Shown here piece after piece: positions 17,258 to 41,936 of a stretch of 57,160 bases of DNA (position 1 is its first letter; each line of letters starts with the position of its first letter). Below the pieces are notes generated by a model, which saw only the letters and a list, made by a program, of their open reading frames with translations, had not been told where the DNA came from and did not search any database. Made by a program: the position numbers and the translations under genes. This stretch comes from Blastopirellula marina (GTDB lineage Bacteria; Planctomycetota; Planctomycetia; Pirellulales; Thermoguttaceae): NCBI GenBank assembly GCA_020721965.1, contig DYLS01000011.1, positions 1-57,160 on the forward strand, read 5' to 3'.

Positions 17258-20200
17258 TCAGCAAAAGTCTCGGGACTGAGGAGCGAGCTTTCCCAATTCC
17301 GGGGTCAGGTCTTCCAATCGCATCGCGACCACGTGAATAGTGCCTTCCTGCTTTTGGAGGCGACCGACCGCCCAGAGCACGGAAGCCGTCAGGGCGGCGC
17401 TTCGCCAGCGTCGCCATACGTCCGGCTTGACAATCAGATTGATGATGCCTGTCTCGTCCTCCAGGCTGACAAAGGTGATTCCCTTAGCGGTGCTGGGACG
17501 CTGCCGGACCAGAACGATTCCGGCTACGCGGACGGGATTTCCTGAGGCAATCGCTTCCAATTCCTTCGCCGTGACGGCCCCTCGCTCCCGCAATGTGGGG
17601 CGGAGGAACAAGAGCGGATGCCTTCGCAGCGACATGCCCGTACAGGCGTAGTCGGCCAGAACCTCCTCCAGCGGTTTCGCCCTGGGAGGCAGATAGCCGT
17701 GGTTTCCGGCATCTTGGCGAGGGGAAGAATCAGCCGTCTCGGCAGCTTCCCAAAGCGGCATGGGACGGCTCTCCGCCTCCAGCATCTTCCAGGCGGCGCG
17801 GCGGCGATCTAGGGACAAGGAGCTGAAGGCGTCGGCTCGGGACAATCGAGCCAGAGTGGACCGCGAGAACCTCGTCCTGCGCACGAACTCCTCGAAATCG
17901 GCGAATGCTCCCCCACGCTCGCGTTCGGCGACCAGCGTTTCGGCATCGCGTTGCCGCAAGCCAGCTACCAGGTGAAATCCCAGCCGAATGGCCTTGGGCG
18001 GAAACAGGGCCGACTCCGCAAGCCAGGAGGTCGGTCTTTTCCCAGCCGTGTCGTCCGGCGGAGGCGAACCATGCCAGGGAACCGCCGATTCGTCCACCAT
18101 GCCGAGCAACGGGGCTTCCTGCCGGGGCGTGCGATCCCCTCCGTTCGGGGATGAATCCTCTGCCGGAAGAGGCGGCCCGGCCGAAAAGCCAGCGTGCGAC
18201 GTGCTGTCCGGGCCAGGCACGGCATCCTCCAGGATGGTCTCCCAGCGGCTGTAATGGATATCGACGGGACGCACTTCCACGCCATGCCGCCGGGCATCGG
18301 CGATCAATTGAGCCGGGGCGTAAAAGCCCATCGGTTGGCTGTTCAACAGCCCCACGGTGAATGCGGCGTGATAATGATGTTTGAGCCAGGCCGAGACGTA
18401 TACCAGAAGTGCGAAACTCGCCGCGTGCGACTCGGGGAACCCGTAGTCCCCGAAACCGCGAATCTGGCGGAAGACCGCCTCGGCGTAGCCGGCATCGAAG
18501 CCCTGGGTCGTCATGCCGTCGATCAGCTTTTTGTGAAAGGCGTCGATCAGGCCGGGGCGCCGCCAGGCCCCCATCGCGCGGCGCAGTTGGTCAGCCTCGC
18601 CGGGCGTGAAACCGGCCGCCTCGACGGCCAGTCGCATGGCCTGCTCTTGAAACAGGGGCACCCCCAGCGTCTTGCCCAACACGCGGCGGATCGTCTCATG
18701 GGGATAGGTCGCCGCCTCTCGACCCGACCTCCGCCGGAGATACGGATGGACCATGTTTCCCTGAATCGGCCCCGGCCGAACGATGGCCACCTCGATTACC
18801 AAATCGTAAAAGCATTTCGGCTGCAATCGGGGCAGCATGCTCATCTGGGCGCGGCTTTCGATCTGGAACATGCCCATCGTGTCGGCACGACATATCATGG
18901 AATAGACGCCGGGATCGCCCTCCGGGATGGAAGCCAAGGTCAGCCTCTTACCATAGTGCTTTTCGATCAGTTGAAAGGAACGTCGCACCGCCGTCAGCAT
19001 GCCCAAGGCCAGACAGTCCACCTTGAGGATGCCCAGCTCGTCCAGGTCGTCTTTGTTCCACTGAATGACGGTCCGCTGGGGCATGGAGGCGTTTTCGATG
19101 GGCACTATTTCGCACAGCGGGCCGCGCGTGATCACCATGCCTCCCGTATGTTGCGAGAGATGACGCGGAAAGCCCACCAGACCCTGCGCCAGGGCCATCC
19201 ACTGTCGCACCGCGAGCCGATCCGGATCGAGGCCGATTTCACGGAAGCGTGCTTCCAGGTCGGGTTCGTGATGAAAATGCTCGATCCGCTTGGCCAGGCG
19301 GTCGGCCTGGGCGAGAGGGAATCCCAAGGCTTTACCGATCTCGCGGACCGCGGACCGGGGGCGATAAGTGATGACCTCGGCCGTCATGCCCGCTCGGTCT
19401 CGCCCATATTTCTGGTAAATGTATTGCAAAATTTCCTCTCGTCGCTGATGTTCGAAATCGATGTCGATGTCGGGTGCCTCGTTCCTTTCGCGACTGACGA
19501 ATCGCTCGAACAAGAGGTCCATCCGGTCCGGATCGACGGCCGTGATGCCCAGGCAATAGCACACTGCCGAATTGGCGGCCGAACCCCGCCCCTGATAGAG
19601 GATGCCGCGCGATCGGGCAAAGCGCCCCAGGTCCCACACAGTCAAGAAATAGGCCTCGTAATGCAATTCCCGAATCAGTCGCAGTTCATGCTCCAACAAA
19701 TGCCGCACCTTTTCCGGAATCCCGCCGGGATAGCGGCGGCGCGCCCCTTCCCACGTCAAGTGCGCCAAGTAGTCGCTCGGCGATTCGCCATGCGGAGACA
19801 ATTCCCGGGGGTATTCGTAGCGCAGCTCGTCGAGCGAAAAGCGGCAGCGATCGGCGACTTCGCGAGTTCTCGCCAAGGCCTCGGGCAAGGGGTGCCACAG
19901 GACGGCGATCTCCTCGGGAGTTTTCAGGCAACGCTGGGCATTGGTGAAACGGCGGGCGCCTAACTGATCGACCGTCGTTCCCAGCCGGATGGCGGCCAGG
20001 GCATCCGCCAACGCTGCCCGGCTGGGGTGATGATAATACACGTCCCCCGCCGCCAAAGCGGGGAGGCCCGATTGCCGCGACAGCTCGCGAAGCCACTCCA
20101 GCCGACGGCGATCGTTGGGTCCAAAATACAACTCGCACAAGAGATAACCGCGATCGCCGAACAGGTCTCGATATTCCCGCAAACGCGGCAGCAAGGCATC

Positions 20201-20584
20201 GGGACGCTGCAAGCGGGGTATCACTCCCGCCAAAAGGCCCTCTGCATGATCCGCCAGATCGGCGAAGGAGAGCGTGCAGCAACCTTTCTCCGCACGCCGC
20301 CGCCCCACCGTAATAAGACGGCACAATCGTCCGTAAGAGGCCCGATCGCTCGCCCAAAGCACGACGGATAGGGAATCCTTAGGCTCGACCTCGGCGCCCA
20401 CCACGAGCTTGATGCCCACCTCCTTGGCCGCGATATGGGCGCGGACTATTCCGGCCAAGCTCGCCCGGTCCGTGATGGCCACGGCATGGCACCCGATCTC
20501 GGCGGCTCGTCGCACCAATTCGTCGGGGTGCGAAGCCCCCTCCAGGAACGGGAAGTTCGTCTTGGCGTGGAGTTCGCAATACAT
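17258..20584 (-). CDS. dnaE2: Error-prone DNA polymerase DnaE2 (ImuC)
   Basis: 1108 residues from the ATG at 20584 (a TTG 12 nt earlier is possible). C-family polymerase alpha subunit that performs translesion synthesis with ImuA and ImuB after DNA damage. The N-terminal PHP domain begins YCELHAKTNFPFLEGASHPD, a form typical of DnaE2 and not DnaE1. The catalytic Asp residues are in EAPDIDIDFEHQRRE near residue 372. The thumb/fingers region and helix-hairpin-helix (VAGLRQRDAETLVAERERGG) follow, then an OB-fold near the end and a terminal SRDFC close to the usual SRDF. An insertion of about 70 low-complexity Pro/Ser-rich residues lies near 790-860, before KAIRLGFHLVAGL, where other DnaE2 proteins are short. 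The gene is 90 bp downstream of imuB. Confidence 0.95.
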   Translation of the reverse strand: MYCELHAKTNFPFLEGASHPDELVRRAAEIGCHAVAITDRASLAGIVRAHIAAKEVGIKLVVGAEVEPKDSLSVVLWASDRASYGRLCRLITVGRRRAEKGCCTLSFADLADHAEGLLAGVIPRLQRPDALLPRLREYRDLFGDRGYLLCELYFGPNDRRRLEWLRELSRQSGLPALAAGDVYYHHPSRAALADALAAIRLGTTVDQLGARRFTNAQRCLKTPEEIAVLWHPLPEALARTREVADRCRFSLDELRYEYPRELSPHGESPSDYLAHLTWEGARRRYPGGIPEKVRHLLEHELRLIRELHYEAYFLTVWDLGRFARSRGILYQGRGSAANSAVCYCLGITAVDPDRMDLLFERFVSRERNEAPDIDIDFEHQRREEILQYIYQKYGRDRAGMTAEVITYRPRSAVREIGKALGFPLAQADRLAKRIEHFHHEPDLEARFREIGLDPDRLAVRQWMALAQGLVGFPRHLSQHTGGMVITRGPLCEIVPIENASMPQRTVIQWNKDDLDELGILKVDCLALGMLTAVRRSFQLIEKHYGKRLTLASIPEGDPGVYSMICRADTMGMFQIESRAQMSMLPRLQPKCFYDLVIEVAIVRPGPIQGNMVHPYLRRRSGREAATYPHETIRRVLGKTLGVPLFQEQAMRLAVEAAGFTPGEADQLRRAMGAWRRPGLIDAFHKKLIDGMTTQGFDAGYAEAVFRQIRGFGDYGFPESHAASFALLVYVSAWLKHHYHAAFTVGLLNSQPMGFYAPAQLIADARRHGVEVRPVDIHYSRWETILEDAVPGPDSTSHAGFSAGPPLPAEDSSPNGGDRTPRQEAPLLGMVDESAVPWHGSPPPDDTAGKRPTSWLAESALFPPKAIRLGFHLVAGLRQRDAETLVAERERGGAFADFEEFVRRTRFSRSTLARLSRADAFSSLSLDRRRAAWKMLEAESRPMPLWEAAETADSSPRQDAGNHGYLPPRAKPLEEVLADYACTGMSLRRHPLLFLRPTLRERGAVTAKELEAIASGNPVRVAGIVLVRQRPSTAKGITFVSLEDETGIINLIVKPDVWRRWRSAALTASVLWAVGRLQKQEGTIHVVAMRLEDLTPELGKLAPQSRDFC

Positions 20585-20674
20585 GAGTCGCGCCAAAAAA
20601 GCGAGAGCAACACTTATCGAAAAACGCAGTACAATTTCCCAAAGCGATCAGCCATCGCGCGCGGCAACCAAGGA

Positions 20675-22093
20675 CTATCCAAAGGAACCATGCAGAAACC
20701 AACGCCCGTCTTGCAGGCGGCGGTAAAGCCAAAGGTGGGAACCGTCCTCCCATTCCGTGCGATAGTAATCCCGCGCGGTCGTTCGACCACGCCACCAACC
20801 GGTTTCGATGCGTTCCGGTCCCCATGCGCGAACTACGGCAAACCACTTGCCGCCGTGAAAGCAGCGATAAGGCGGGCCGTCGGGATGGGCCGCCATCACG
20901 GCAACCGGAATCGGTCGGCCGTATAATCGCGTCGGTCGGGGACCGAGGTCCGGCAGTGCCGTGGCGCGGAAGGGGCTTCGCTTTCGGGCAGAAAATATCG
21001 GAAATCCCTCCCAGGCCAATTCCGGCTGGTATTCGGCTCGCAAAACGGGTTGAAGCACGCGCTCCTCCCCCAAACGAGCGGCAAGCCGCTCTACCAATCG
21101 CCCCCAGCGAAGGGTTCGTCGCTCTTCCCGCAATCCCTCGAACAACCAACCTTGCCTGGTTAACAGCGGCGCTGTCTCCGCCGCCGTAACGCGCACTCCC
21201 CACACCGCTCCCGGCAGATGGCACCGCTCCAGTCGCAAGTGGAGGACTTCCAAGATACGCTGCGGGTCGGATGCGGGAGTGAAAAACGCCAAGGAATCCT
21301 CTACCTTTCCGCCACCTTCGCAGTGAACGGTTACCGCCAACCTTGTAATACCACGATCACCCGTCGCGGTTTGCAATAACAAAAGCTCCACGGCGCGTTG
21401 CAGACAAAAAGCCAGCGCCTCGGGCGAAGTGCAGGGGTACTCCAGGCATTGCGTTACGGAATTCTCTTCCGGAGGTTGCCAGGGGGGCAGGATTTCGGTT
21501 CGGCGTCCGGTTATCTCTTCCCACCGCCGCCAGGTATCGCGGCCGAATCTCGCGGCAATTGCGTCAGCCGGTATTTCCATGAAATCGGCGACCGTGCGAA
21601 TGCCCAGCTCCCGGCAACAGTCCACGATCTCTTGCCGAAATCCTAGTGCCGCAATGGGGTAGCGCCGAAGGAATGGGATTCCCTGCCCCGCTGGAATCCA
21701 ATACACCCAAGAGAGCCGCTGCGGCAAGGCGGCATCCTGGGCACGAAGTGCCGCCCCCCTGGTAAAGATCGTCGCCATGCCGATCGTGTCTCCGAAGGCG
21801 ATACGAACCGGTGGCGTTCCCAAGTCATCGCAATCGGCCAGAATCTCCGAGACCAACGCCAGTTCCGAGGACCAAAGGTGCGATAGCCCTGTCAAGTCCA
21901 AGATCACAGCGCGGTCGTCAAGGGGGTCGAGGAGCACGGTGGGGGTGTACCGCGTCAGACGATGGGCCAGAACATCGCGGAGCGAATGTCTCGCTTCAGC
22001 CCCAGACCCTGTTTTGTTGGGGACGGCGTGCGGCATCGGCACGGAGTCTTTCGGCCAGTCTCCAATGATCAGGCAAAGGATACGTCGGTTCAT
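20675..22093 (-). CDS. imuB: ImuB-type inactive Y-family polymerase homologue
   Basis: 472 residues from the ATG at 22093, giving the typical ImuB N-terminus MNRRILCLIIGDWP. ImuB has a Y-family polymerase fold that lacks the catalytic carboxylates and links ImuA, DnaE2 and the sliding clamp. Here the position of the first metal-binding Asp of active Y-family enzymes is not conserved, consistent with a non-catalytic role. Recognisable segments include DPLDDRAVILDLTGLSHLWS, GIRTVADFMEIPADAIAARFG (helix-hairpin-helix region) and a C-terminal WEDGSHLWLYRRLQDGRWFLHG typical of ImuB. I did not find a clear clamp-binding QLxLF-type motif. Its 5' end overlaps imuA by about 98 bp in another frame, which suggests translational coupling. 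Confidence 0.92.
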   Translation of the reverse strand: MNRRILCLIIGDWPKDSVPMPHAVPNKTGSGAEARHSLRDVLAHRLTRYTPTVLLDPLDDRAVILDLTGLSHLWSSELALVSEILADCDDLGTPPVRIAFGDTIGMATIFTRGAALRAQDAALPQRLSWVYWIPAGQGIPFLRRYPIAALGFRQEIVDCCRELGIRTVADFMEIPADAIAARFGRDTWRRWEEITGRRTEILPPWQPPEENSVTQCLEYPCTSPEALAFCLQRAVELLLLQTATGDRGITRLAVTVHCEGGGKVEDSLAFFTPASDPQRILEVLHLRLERCHLPGAVWGVRVTAAETAPLLTRQGWLFEGLREERRTLRWGRLVERLAARLGEERVLQPVLRAEYQPELAWEGFPIFSARKRSPFRATALPDLGPRPTRLYGRPIPVAVMAAHPDGPPYRCFHGGKWFAVVRAWGPERIETGWWRGRTTARDYYRTEWEDGSHLWLYRRLQDGRWFLHGSFG

Positions 22094-22784
22094 GCACGAG
22101 TACCTCCACACTGCGGCCGGGAATCATCCCCCGTGCGGCGAGCAGATGAATCCGCAGCCGACGGGCCTCCGATAGCGTATCGCCGGGACGCGGCCAAGGC
22201 CGTGGTTCCACGAGCAAACGCACGGCAGCCCAGCACGGCGAATGTCGAGCCGCCTCTGGCCGCAGGATCAAGCCCAGCCCTCCGCTTTTTTCCGCAGCCA
22301 ACTGAAACCGCCGCATTGCGATGTCACTCACCCGCGGAAACGCGGCGAACACAGCCGCTACGTTTTCATCGGCCAGGGATTGGTAAACCGCCCAAATGGC
22401 GTCTTGCCGTGAGGCTGGGCGGACGAGGAGGAGCTGCGCCGGATCGATCCCCCGCTGGAATGCCACTGGTGGATAGAACGTGCCCGCCCCGTCCACGATG
22501 ACCGCTGCTCCCCCGCGGCGACAGGCCGCCGCTGCCAATCGCAACGCCAGGTCCTCGGCACCCGAGCCGGGGCGATCCGACAGCCACTCCACGAGGCCCC
22601 CCATCGGAATCCCACCGGAGAGCAATCCCTCGTCGATCTCCCGAATCCCGGTTTGCAATCGCGGGCTTTCGATCTGAGACAGGGGCCGCAGCCCCTCCAC
22701 CCGTCGCCGCAGCTCTTCCACGATACGACGCACGGAAAGCTCGGCGAGGGATGCGGTGTGGGATGCGTGCGCGATGGTATTCAT
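21996..22784 (-). CDS. imuA: ImuA-like RecA-fold mutagenesis protein
   Basis: About 262 residues if the ATG at 22784 is used; a GTG at 22829 would add 15 residues, and neither has a well-spaced ribosome binding site. ImuA is a RecA-like protein that binds and modulates RecA within the ImuABC mutasome. Seen here: GIREIDEGLLSGGIPMGGLVEWL and the region GSGAEDLALRLAAAACRR, where RecA has its nucleotide loop but which lacks a full Walker A; then AVIVDGAGTFYPPVA and AAFPRVSDIAMRRFQLAAEKS, as in SulA/ImuA relatives. The protein ends PQQNRVWG inside the imuB coding region. First gene of the imuA-imuB-dnaE2 cassette. Confidence 0.85.
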   Translation of the reverse strand: MNTIAHASHTASLAELSVRRIVEELRRRVEGLRPLSQIESPRLQTGIREIDEGLLSGGIPMGGLVEWLSDRPGSGAEDLALRLAAAACRRGGAAVIVDGAGTFYPPVAFQRGIDPAQLLLVRPASRQDAIWAVYQSLADENVAAVFAAFPRVSDIAMRRFQLAAEKSGGLGLILRPEAARHSPCWAAVRLLVEPRPWPRPGDTLSEARRLRIHLLAARGMIPGRSVEVLVHEPTYPLPDHWRLAERLRADAARRPQQNRVWG

Positions 22785-22792
22785 GGTGGGTA

Positions 22793-22956
22793 GTCTTTCA
22801 CAGGGATTCTCGTCGCTGGCTCTCGTCACTGCAAAACGGCTCGCCCTCCTGTCATTTCGAGCGGAGCGAGAAATCTTGCGAAGTCTTTTGCAGGAATTCG
22901 CCTCGCTGCAAAACCACTCGCGCTGCTGTCATTTCGAGCGAAGCGAGAAATCTCGC
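22793..22956 (+). repeat. R3 dispersed repeat, copies b and c in tandem
   Basis: Copy b (22793-22888) has CACAGGGATTCTCGTC, an ACTGCAAAACGGCTCGCCCT arm and the core TGTCATTTCGAGCGGAGCGA (from 22850). Copy c (22895-22956) repeats the arm (GCTGCAAAACCACTCG) and core (from 22927). Both lie between the predicted imuA promoter and the imuA start, so they would be in its leader RNA. Confidence 0.78.
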
Positions 22957-23001
22957 CGTGAACGGTTACCATGGTGGTACCAAGGGCTTTCCGGGGATGC
23001 G

Positions 23002-23046
23002 GTACTTGTGTACATGTAGTGTACTTTTGTATCTTGTCGGCGTCAA
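23002..23046 (-). promoter_or_regulatory. Predicted sigma-70 promoter with overlapping palindromic operator for imuA-imuB-dnaE2
   Basis: On the minus strand TTGACG (23041-23046) and TACACT (23018-23023) are separated by exactly 17 bp, a good sigma-70 match. The -10 box and expected start near 23011 lie within a GTAC-rich motif, GTACACTACATGTACACAAG (about 23005-23024), containing the palindrome TACATGTA and repeated GTACAC. Repressor sites of SOS genes often overlap the promoter like this, and this cassette is LexA-controlled in other bacteria, so a LexA-type operator is a reasonable inference. It does not match the Gram-positive or Escherichia LexA consensus. Confidence 0.5.
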
Positions 23047-23172
23047 GCGGAAAAGACTTGCATGAGGTTTCATCCTGCACAGGGGCCGCGTCCTTCCCCT
23101 TTGCATCACCCAACGACGAAGAACGCAGGGGCCAGAAGACGCGCCAATGGCTCAATAGCAATGGGCACGCTC

Positions 23173-23307
23173 AACAATCTCAACAATCTCGAAAAGCTCA
23201 ATAAGCTCGGCAGTCGCAACAAGTTCAGAAAGCGTAGCAACTTCAACAAGCGTGATAAGCGTGACAAGCTCAACAATTGCGACAAATGTGACAAGCTTGA
23301 CAAGAAA
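23173..23307 (+). repeat. 9-bp tandem array, 15 units (low complexity)
   Basis: Fifteen units of exactly 9 bp with consensus near RACAAGCTC, for example AACAATCTC twice, AATAAGCTC, GACAAGCTC. In the frame from 23062 this reads as tripeptides NNL, NNL, EKL, NKL and so on, ending DKK and then RGRPP, which resembles an AT-hook. The opposite strand is a Leu/Ser-rich open frame. Open frames are expected from a period divisible by three; I do not call a gene. The remainder of 22957-23462 holds the imuA promoter and nothing else recognised. Confidence 0.8.
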
Positions 23308-23462
23308 AGAGGCAGGCCCCCCCATCTGGCGGCCATCAACGGAAGCACGGCCGGGCAGGGAACGCTTTACCCACTAGAGTAGAGATCGGAAGCCCCCTTC
23401 GCGCAGTGATGGGGGATTCCAGCCGATCGGTTATCGTCAGCACAAGAGACGGAAGGCCGCGA

Positions 23463-23771
23463 TCACGCCTCCTGCGAGGCCGGCTCTTCCTGTGGCTCTA
23501 CCTTGGGAGGGACGAACTTAGGCGCGGGATTGGTTTGCCGATCTTCTTCGTTTTCGCGGGTCTTGGGGGGGGACGGCTTGGAGGTTTCCATGGCCGCCGA
23601 CTTCAGTTCGTCCTCGATCCCCTGCAATCCCTTCTTGAACTCCATGAAGCTTCGCCCCACGGAGCGAGCTACCTGCGGCAGACGGTTGCCGAATAGCAGC
23701 AGTGCGACGATCATGATGATGATCATCTCTCCGCCACCCGGCATTCCAAACTGTGCCCATAACGGAGCCAT
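23463..23771 (-). CDS. tatA: TatA/E-family twin-arginine translocase subunit (first of two)
   Basis: About 102 residues from the ATG at 23771, chosen because GGAG lies 9 nt upstream; an ATG 15 nt earlier is possible. One membrane helix (GGEMIIIMIVALLLFG) is followed by the conserved FG hinge, NRLPQVARSVGRSFMEFKKGL amphipathic helix, and a long charged Pro/Glu tail. It forms the pore of the twin-arginine translocase in the inner membrane, relevant to the Tat-signal oxidoreductase at 9715. The GGE before the helix and the longer tail differ from the upstream paralogue, so one could act as TatB; tatC is not in the window. Confidence 0.88.
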   Translation of the reverse strand: MAPLWAQFGMPGGGEMIIIMIVALLLFGNRLPQVARSVGRSFMEFKKGLQGIEDELKSAAMETSKPSPPKTRENEEDRQTNPAPKFVPPKVEPQEEPASQEA

Positions 23772-41822: not shown

Positions 41823-41936
41823 CGCGTGCGCTCCCACCCCTTGGGCAATATTGCACTGTGTACCAGCGTACCCATCGATGCTTTGACCACAAAAACGGGT
41901 GGAAAATATTACGGCTCCCTTCCATCGTGCAGCGAT

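Follow-up and report, generated by a model that had tools for sequence, protein, structure and literature searches.

A predicted LexA operator at the imuA-imuB-dnaE2 promoter of a planctomycete and the recurrence of its box within the order

What controls the mutagenesis genes at this locus, and where does the operator lie? The window, by which we mean the whole 57,160-nucleotide stretch analyzed here, makes up contig C196 of G000 (4.95 Mb, 380 contigs), and on the minus strand of this stretch lie frames arranged as an imuA-imuB-dnaE2 cassette, which, where present, is persistently LexA-regulated according to the available excerpts of PMC3323433. An earlier note had proposed that the promoter of this cassette holds the LexA box of the lineage. 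That proposal is well supported by sequence comparison with relatives, although the operator itself had been misplaced.

The cassette, its promoter and two predicted operator boxes

The first frame of the cassette, a recA-like imuA (21996-22829, minus strand; first in-frame ATG at 22784), matches NF033429 with an E-value of 2.9e-30 and 105.5 bits, short of the cut-off of 150, and the last, dnaE2 (17258-20596, minus strand), is recognized as an error-prone DNA polymerase by NF004225 (1379.6 bits, cut-off 939). Between them, on the same strand, lies a frame that is presumed to be imuB by position only (20675-22111); it overlaps imuA and is separated from dnaE2 by 78 bases. Its protein has no Pfam family at E-values up to 10 and no PDB match, its best NCBIfam match is to DNA polymerase IV only (E 0.077), and it may be a very divergent ImuB or something else. 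The locus resembles the known LexA-run cassette, as described in the excerpts of PMC3323433, in its gene order, in its recognizable imuA and dnaE2 and in a LexA-type box at the promoter, but differs from it in that imuB is not recognized by the family libraries. The leader between promoter and imuA frame (22830-22998, minus strand) contains two copies of a dispersed repeat, TCATTTCGAGCGNAGCGAGAAATC (22852-22875 and 22929-22952), of which the genome has 149 copies when up to two mismatches are allowed (81 + 68; reversed control, 0), among them one directly downstream of lexA (C88:13947).

Upstream of the leader, a -35 element TTGACG (23046-23041) and a -10 element TACACT (23023-23018) are separated by 17 bp on the minus strand. 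This is the sole sigma-70-like match in 22780-23500, where shuffled sequences give a mean of 0.2, and it confirms the promoter as it had first been read. When one mismatch is tolerated, TTGACR-N17-TACACT has two matches in the window against 0.12 expected; the only exact match is the imuA promoter.

Two boxes lie at this promoter. The pattern RTACANNNGTAC has exactly two copies in the window, at 23002-23013 and 23021-23032 on the minus strand (0.04 expected), and both fall within the 45 bp of 23002-23046. Box 1, AAGATACAAAAGTACACT (23018-23035, minus strand; core ATACAAAAGTAC at 23021-23032), is the predicted main LexA site; it extends from the -10 element into the spacer, placed as in relatives at the usual 11 bp from TTGAC. 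Box 2, CATGTACACAAGTACCGC (22999-23016, minus strand; core GTACACAAGTAC at 23002-23013), lies 19 bp downstream of box 1 and likely covers the start site. With the matrix described below, fitted without lexA and imuA of the window's genome, box 1 scores 17.6 bits (9.5 with a lexA-only and 20.5 with an imuA-only matrix) and box 2 scores 10.3 bits (4.1 and 8.9, respectively). Since the window holds another site of about 12 bits, at 41857, box 2 taken alone is unremarkable, and it is the position beside box 1 that matters. Against the strict consensus TRTACRNNYGTAYA each box has two mismatches; for box 1, the matrix score is the better guide.

Recurrence of the box in relatives and its likeness to known LexA boxes

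The same palindrome recurs upstream of SOS genes in relatives. Upstream regions of 71 lexA, 49 imuA and 21 recA loci were scored, drawn from G000 and from relatives of its family and order (NCBI places the Thermoguttaceae in the Pirellulales); imuA loci L052 and L093 were dropped because of their short upstreams. A palindromic 18-bp matrix, grown from the seed GTACANNTGTAC that was picked after inspection of the upstreams and fitted on lexA and imuA, reads about AnTRTACRnnYGTAYAnT, and we took 8 bits as the threshold. The box exceeds this threshold in 48 of the 49 imuA upstreams (0.5 expected from shuffles) and in 68/71 at lexA (0.75 expected), counts that rest on fitted data, the window's genome included. 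Evidence from outside the fitting comes from recA, from cross-training, and from the named loci and the phage-like operon considered below. Specifically, recA, held out of the fit, has the box above 8 bits in 13/21 upstreams (0.25 expected), a matrix trained on lexA finds the imuA box in 41/48 (0.4 expected), and one trained on imuA finds the lexA box in 60/70 (0.5 expected); the control for cross-training, run on the terminal 340 bases of each of 59 loci, yielded one match in 59. Furthermore, TTGAC stands 11 bp before the box in 26/49 imuA upstreams and 5 bp before it in 44/71 lexA upstreams, and because this distance differs between the two genes, the box does not simply follow from the promoter.

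A scan with a LexA profile extended the comparison to 80 named loci out of the 587 relatives found. Seventy-seven of these were scored (L239, L247 and L278 had short upstreams), and six that string matching identified as already in the set were counted apart. The box exceeds 10 bits in 31 of the 52 new lexA upstreams assigned to planctomycetes, a group that includes one locus whose title is just "bacterium" (L264) and three with the title Kuenenia; Aeoliella straminimaris, at 23.3 bits, is among the positives. Outside this group the box was found at lexA in 0/3 Phycisphaerae, 0/8 Streptomyces and 1/8 members of other phyla. It was likewise not found in the lexA upstreams of Singulisphaera sp. 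GP187, Tautonia sociabilis and Rhodopirellula solitaria (LexA 44% identical), and thus it is not phylum-wide. The LexA recognition helix, which would read the box, has the form SPNGV..HL, and its seven named residues (S, P, N, G, V, H, L) are the same in 71/71 sequences. Among 147 genomes, lexA is present in 55 of the 56 with imuA (ImuA at E-values up to 2.3e-16; borderline G097, G128 and G140 excluded) versus 57 of the 91 without it (Fisher P 1.6e-7, ancestry ignored).

How does this box compare with LexA boxes already described? The closest likeness is to cyanobacteria, whose LexA box is given as RGTACNNNDGTWCB, with the consensus AGTACWNWTGTACT, in the excerpts of PMC3091678 and PMC2248561. 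The two have in common a GTAC-N4-GTAC core, which the excerpts of PMC3091678 describe, an ACA-N2-TGT center and occurrence at lexA and recA. In the window, the core is exact in box 2 and has one change, in an outer base, in box 1; box 2 has one mismatch to RGTACNNNDGTWCB. The departure from the cyanobacterial consensus is in the flanking R and B: of 115 sites of the order, 113 have an A, which B excludes, directly after the core, and the base before it, R in the consensus, is T (85 sites), G (26), C (3) or A (1). The expectation that the box would differ from the known consensus forms therefore holds for the A that follows the core, and fails for the core, which is cyanobacterial. What sets the predicted box apart is its flanks; GTAC-N4-GTAC was already known from cyanobacterial LexA boxes.

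The likeness to other types is more limited. The Gram-positive box, CGAACRNRYGTTYC in the excerpts of PMC2248561, has the same dyad layout of 4-base halves around N4, and GAAC halves do occur at some planctomycete sites; unlike it, the halves here are GTAT or GTAC, and its best match in 22830-23100 has four mismatches. Within that same interval the E. coli-type CTGT-N8-ACAG finds a best match with two mismatches, and the alphaproteobacterial, Bdellovibrio, Xanthomonas and Bacteroidetes forms each have at least two. Matches with no more than one mismatch exist there for the loose cores CTG-N10-CAG and GGTT-N10-AACC, but downstream of the promoter. The LexA motif of Verrucomicrobia is reportedly TGTTC-N4-GAACA, which is like the TGTTCATTTGAACA found at recA of two relatives (G001 and G002) and unlike imuA and lexA of the relatives, where the halves are mostly GTAC or GTAT. 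Planctomycete LexA does not recognize the E. coli motif, according to the excerpts of PMC3108266; in the portions of the literature searched no planctomycete LexA box is stated, and an earlier description is possible.

Several simpler motifs were tried as genome-wide markers and set aside. The other two exact copies of GTACACAAGTAC in the genome lie within GTACAC-type minisatellites; these GTACACNNGTANAC-type minisatellites stand between metabolic genes on contigs C91 (L017) and C276 (L018), which are unlike the rest of the genome seen and are possibly contaminants. The motif TACANNNGTACA is as abundant in the reversed control (7 vs 7 in G000; 14 vs 11 in G002), and at nine further loci every site is contained in some stop-to-stop frame of at least 100 codons, which is weak evidence; the sites at L121 and L124 could be promoters. 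TTGACN{8,13}TACANNNGTA matches imuA in G000 and in G003, and imuA and the phage-like operon in G002, and has no match in G001; the reversed control gave seven forward matches and one reverse match over the four genomes.

lexA, recA and the identity of the repressor

The genome of the window has one LexA, with a PF01726 DNA-binding domain and a PF00717 S24 peptidase domain and a TIGR00498 score above cut-off, so the gene that the proposal requires is there in one copy. Like the imuA promoter, that of lexA reads TTGACG-17-TACACT, and the two promoters have the 11-mer GTACACTACAT in common. The genome holds three copies of this 11-mer (reversed control, 0), one in each of these promoters and one inside a frame that in our own reading resembles a secretion ATPase. 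The recurrence near SOS genes that the earlier note asked for thus took two forms: lexA in the same genome has GTACACTACAT, and in relatives the box stands at imuA, lexA and recA. It did not extend to recA of G000, where the best site scores -3.6 bits. The lexA site of G000 is a half box only (4.8 bits, shuffle P 0.08). Here (L001, 1375-1410) TTGAC lies 11 bp before the half box, the imuA-like distance, and not 5 bp, as if the lexA promoter had been derived from, or had converged on, that of imuA. Considering relatives, recA of G003 has no box, and recA of G001 (L174) and of G002 (L173) has the GTTC variant TGTTCATTTGAACA at 7.7 and 7.9 bits, below the 8-bit threshold. The GTTC variant, one base per half away from GTAC, also appears as TGTTCACATGAACA upstream of G002 imuA (L091). 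With lexA holding a half box and recA none, control of both genes in G000 seems to be fading or shifted. In G003 (87% complete), the search for LexA found none, although imuA there carries the box.

We consider it very probable that the boxes at the imuA promoter form a LexA operator controlling the mutagenesis genes, a prediction made from sequence. In the undamaged cell, a LexA dimer would occupy box 1, on the -10 element and some of the spacer, and a second dimer would probably sit at box 2, on the start site; RNA polymerase would thereby be kept off. Upon DNA damage, RecA filaments would trigger the self-cleavage of LexA, the operon would be transcribed and mutagenic translesion synthesis would follow. 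The parts of this account that concern binding, repression and induction, and the function given to box 2, are modeled on the known LexA pathway. Support for LexA comes from the presence of its gene and the promoter and GTACACTACAT common to lexA and imuA; from the box at imuA, lexA and the held-out recA, together with the cross-training and the TTGAC spacing; and from the invariant recognition helix, the co-occurrence of imuA with lexA and the cassette regulation described in the excerpts of PMC3323433. The reading is weakened by the half box at lexA and the boxless recA of G000 and by the missing LexA of G003, by the modest scores of both boxes with the lexA-only matrix, and by the 18-position model described below, among whose matches up to E 10 the imuA site of G000 is not listed.

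Some of these weak points would be expected if the box were the operator of another repressor that has these targets, with LexA binding elsewhere. The decayed lexA box and the boxless recA of G000 fit such an arrangement, as does the fact that the best genome match of the same model precedes a phage-like operon that encodes an HTH protein of its own. We nonetheless hold it to be improbable, given how consistently the box marks lexA, imuA and recA across the relatives and given that its core is the core of the cyanobacterial LexA box.

Somewhat less probable still is that the operator is the central inverted repeat, as the earlier note suggested, and not boxes 1 and 2. This element, GTACACTACATGTAC with TACATGTA (23010-23024), forms GTACA-N5-TGTAC, a perfect inverted repeat. 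The GTACACTACAT part of it is also present at lexA of G000, and the whole at imuA of G003, the nearest among the relatives compared (RecA 86% and ImuA 70% identical). The G003 locus carries TTGACGCCGATATGGTACAAAGGTACACTACATGTACATG, with a weaker counterpart of box 2 (5.4 bits) and the box 67 bases before the aligned imuA start, and has the TACATGTA junction in common with the window. However, among 30 imuA and 30 lexA loci of relatives and G000, GTACA-N5-TGTAC was found only at imuA of G000. Moreover, imuA of G002, a member of the same genus, lacks the junction, yet keeps box 1 at 20.8 bits. We conclude that TACATGTA (23011-23018) is not the conserved operator and is the junction of the two boxes, one lying over the spacer and -10 element and the other over the likely start.

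That the GTAC pattern is due to chance or to the promoter alone is hardly credible. In its favor, bare GTAC-N4-GTAC is not enriched in G000 (23 sites vs 36 in the reversed control) and the site at 41857 shows that fair scores do arise elsewhere in the window; against it stands conservation at three SOS genes with a gene-specific promoter spacing.

A phage-head-like operon as a candidate further target

If LexA is the repressor, its predicted regulon may reach beyond the SOS genes. In G002 an operon (L198, 1242-12786) begins with an HTH gene followed by papain-like, trypsin-like, ParB-like, terminase, portal and capsid genes, and related loci include L310, L315, L316 and, in G000, L197 (1384-5686, contig C81), a copy that consists of the HTH, papain, trypsin and capsid genes only; no match to the large terminase was found in G000. 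The box stands before the HTH gene at 20.1 bits in G000, 14.4 in G001 and 24.1 in G002, and it exceeds 10 bits in 12 of 30 loci, where about zero are expected; the other 18 upstreams are without it, and the box is not general at this operon. A large terminase like that of G002 is present in 98/147 genomes, mostly as one match, and the operon looks like an old inherited element. We consider it a candidate gene-transfer-agent-like element of the order, with LexA control, as predicted from the box, seen in some lineages only.

It was a sequence-only, 18-position model built from 69 boxes that pointed to this operon; 150 of 304 candidates were scored in G000 and 150 of 330 in G002. In G000 the model listed a single place, upstream of the phage-like operon (E 1.98), while in G002 it listed the phage-like operon and imuA; imuA of G000 and lexA of G002 were missed. 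As the model misses these sites, the list of the regulon is incomplete.

LexA boxes vary among bacterial groups, and a defined box links planctomycetes to the cyanobacterial type; it also makes the SOS regulon predictable and testable in many uncultured and some cultured planctomycetes. Our broadest proposal is a tentative one, and on balance unlikely: that the order has its own LexA box, TRTACRNNYGTAYA, and that the regulon has undergone rewiring in the genus of the window, presumably Thermogutta or a near neighbor, with control of recA and lexA fading and the mutagenesis cassette and the phage-head-like operon under LexA. If this is true, DNA damage would turn on mutation and particle-borne gene transfer together.
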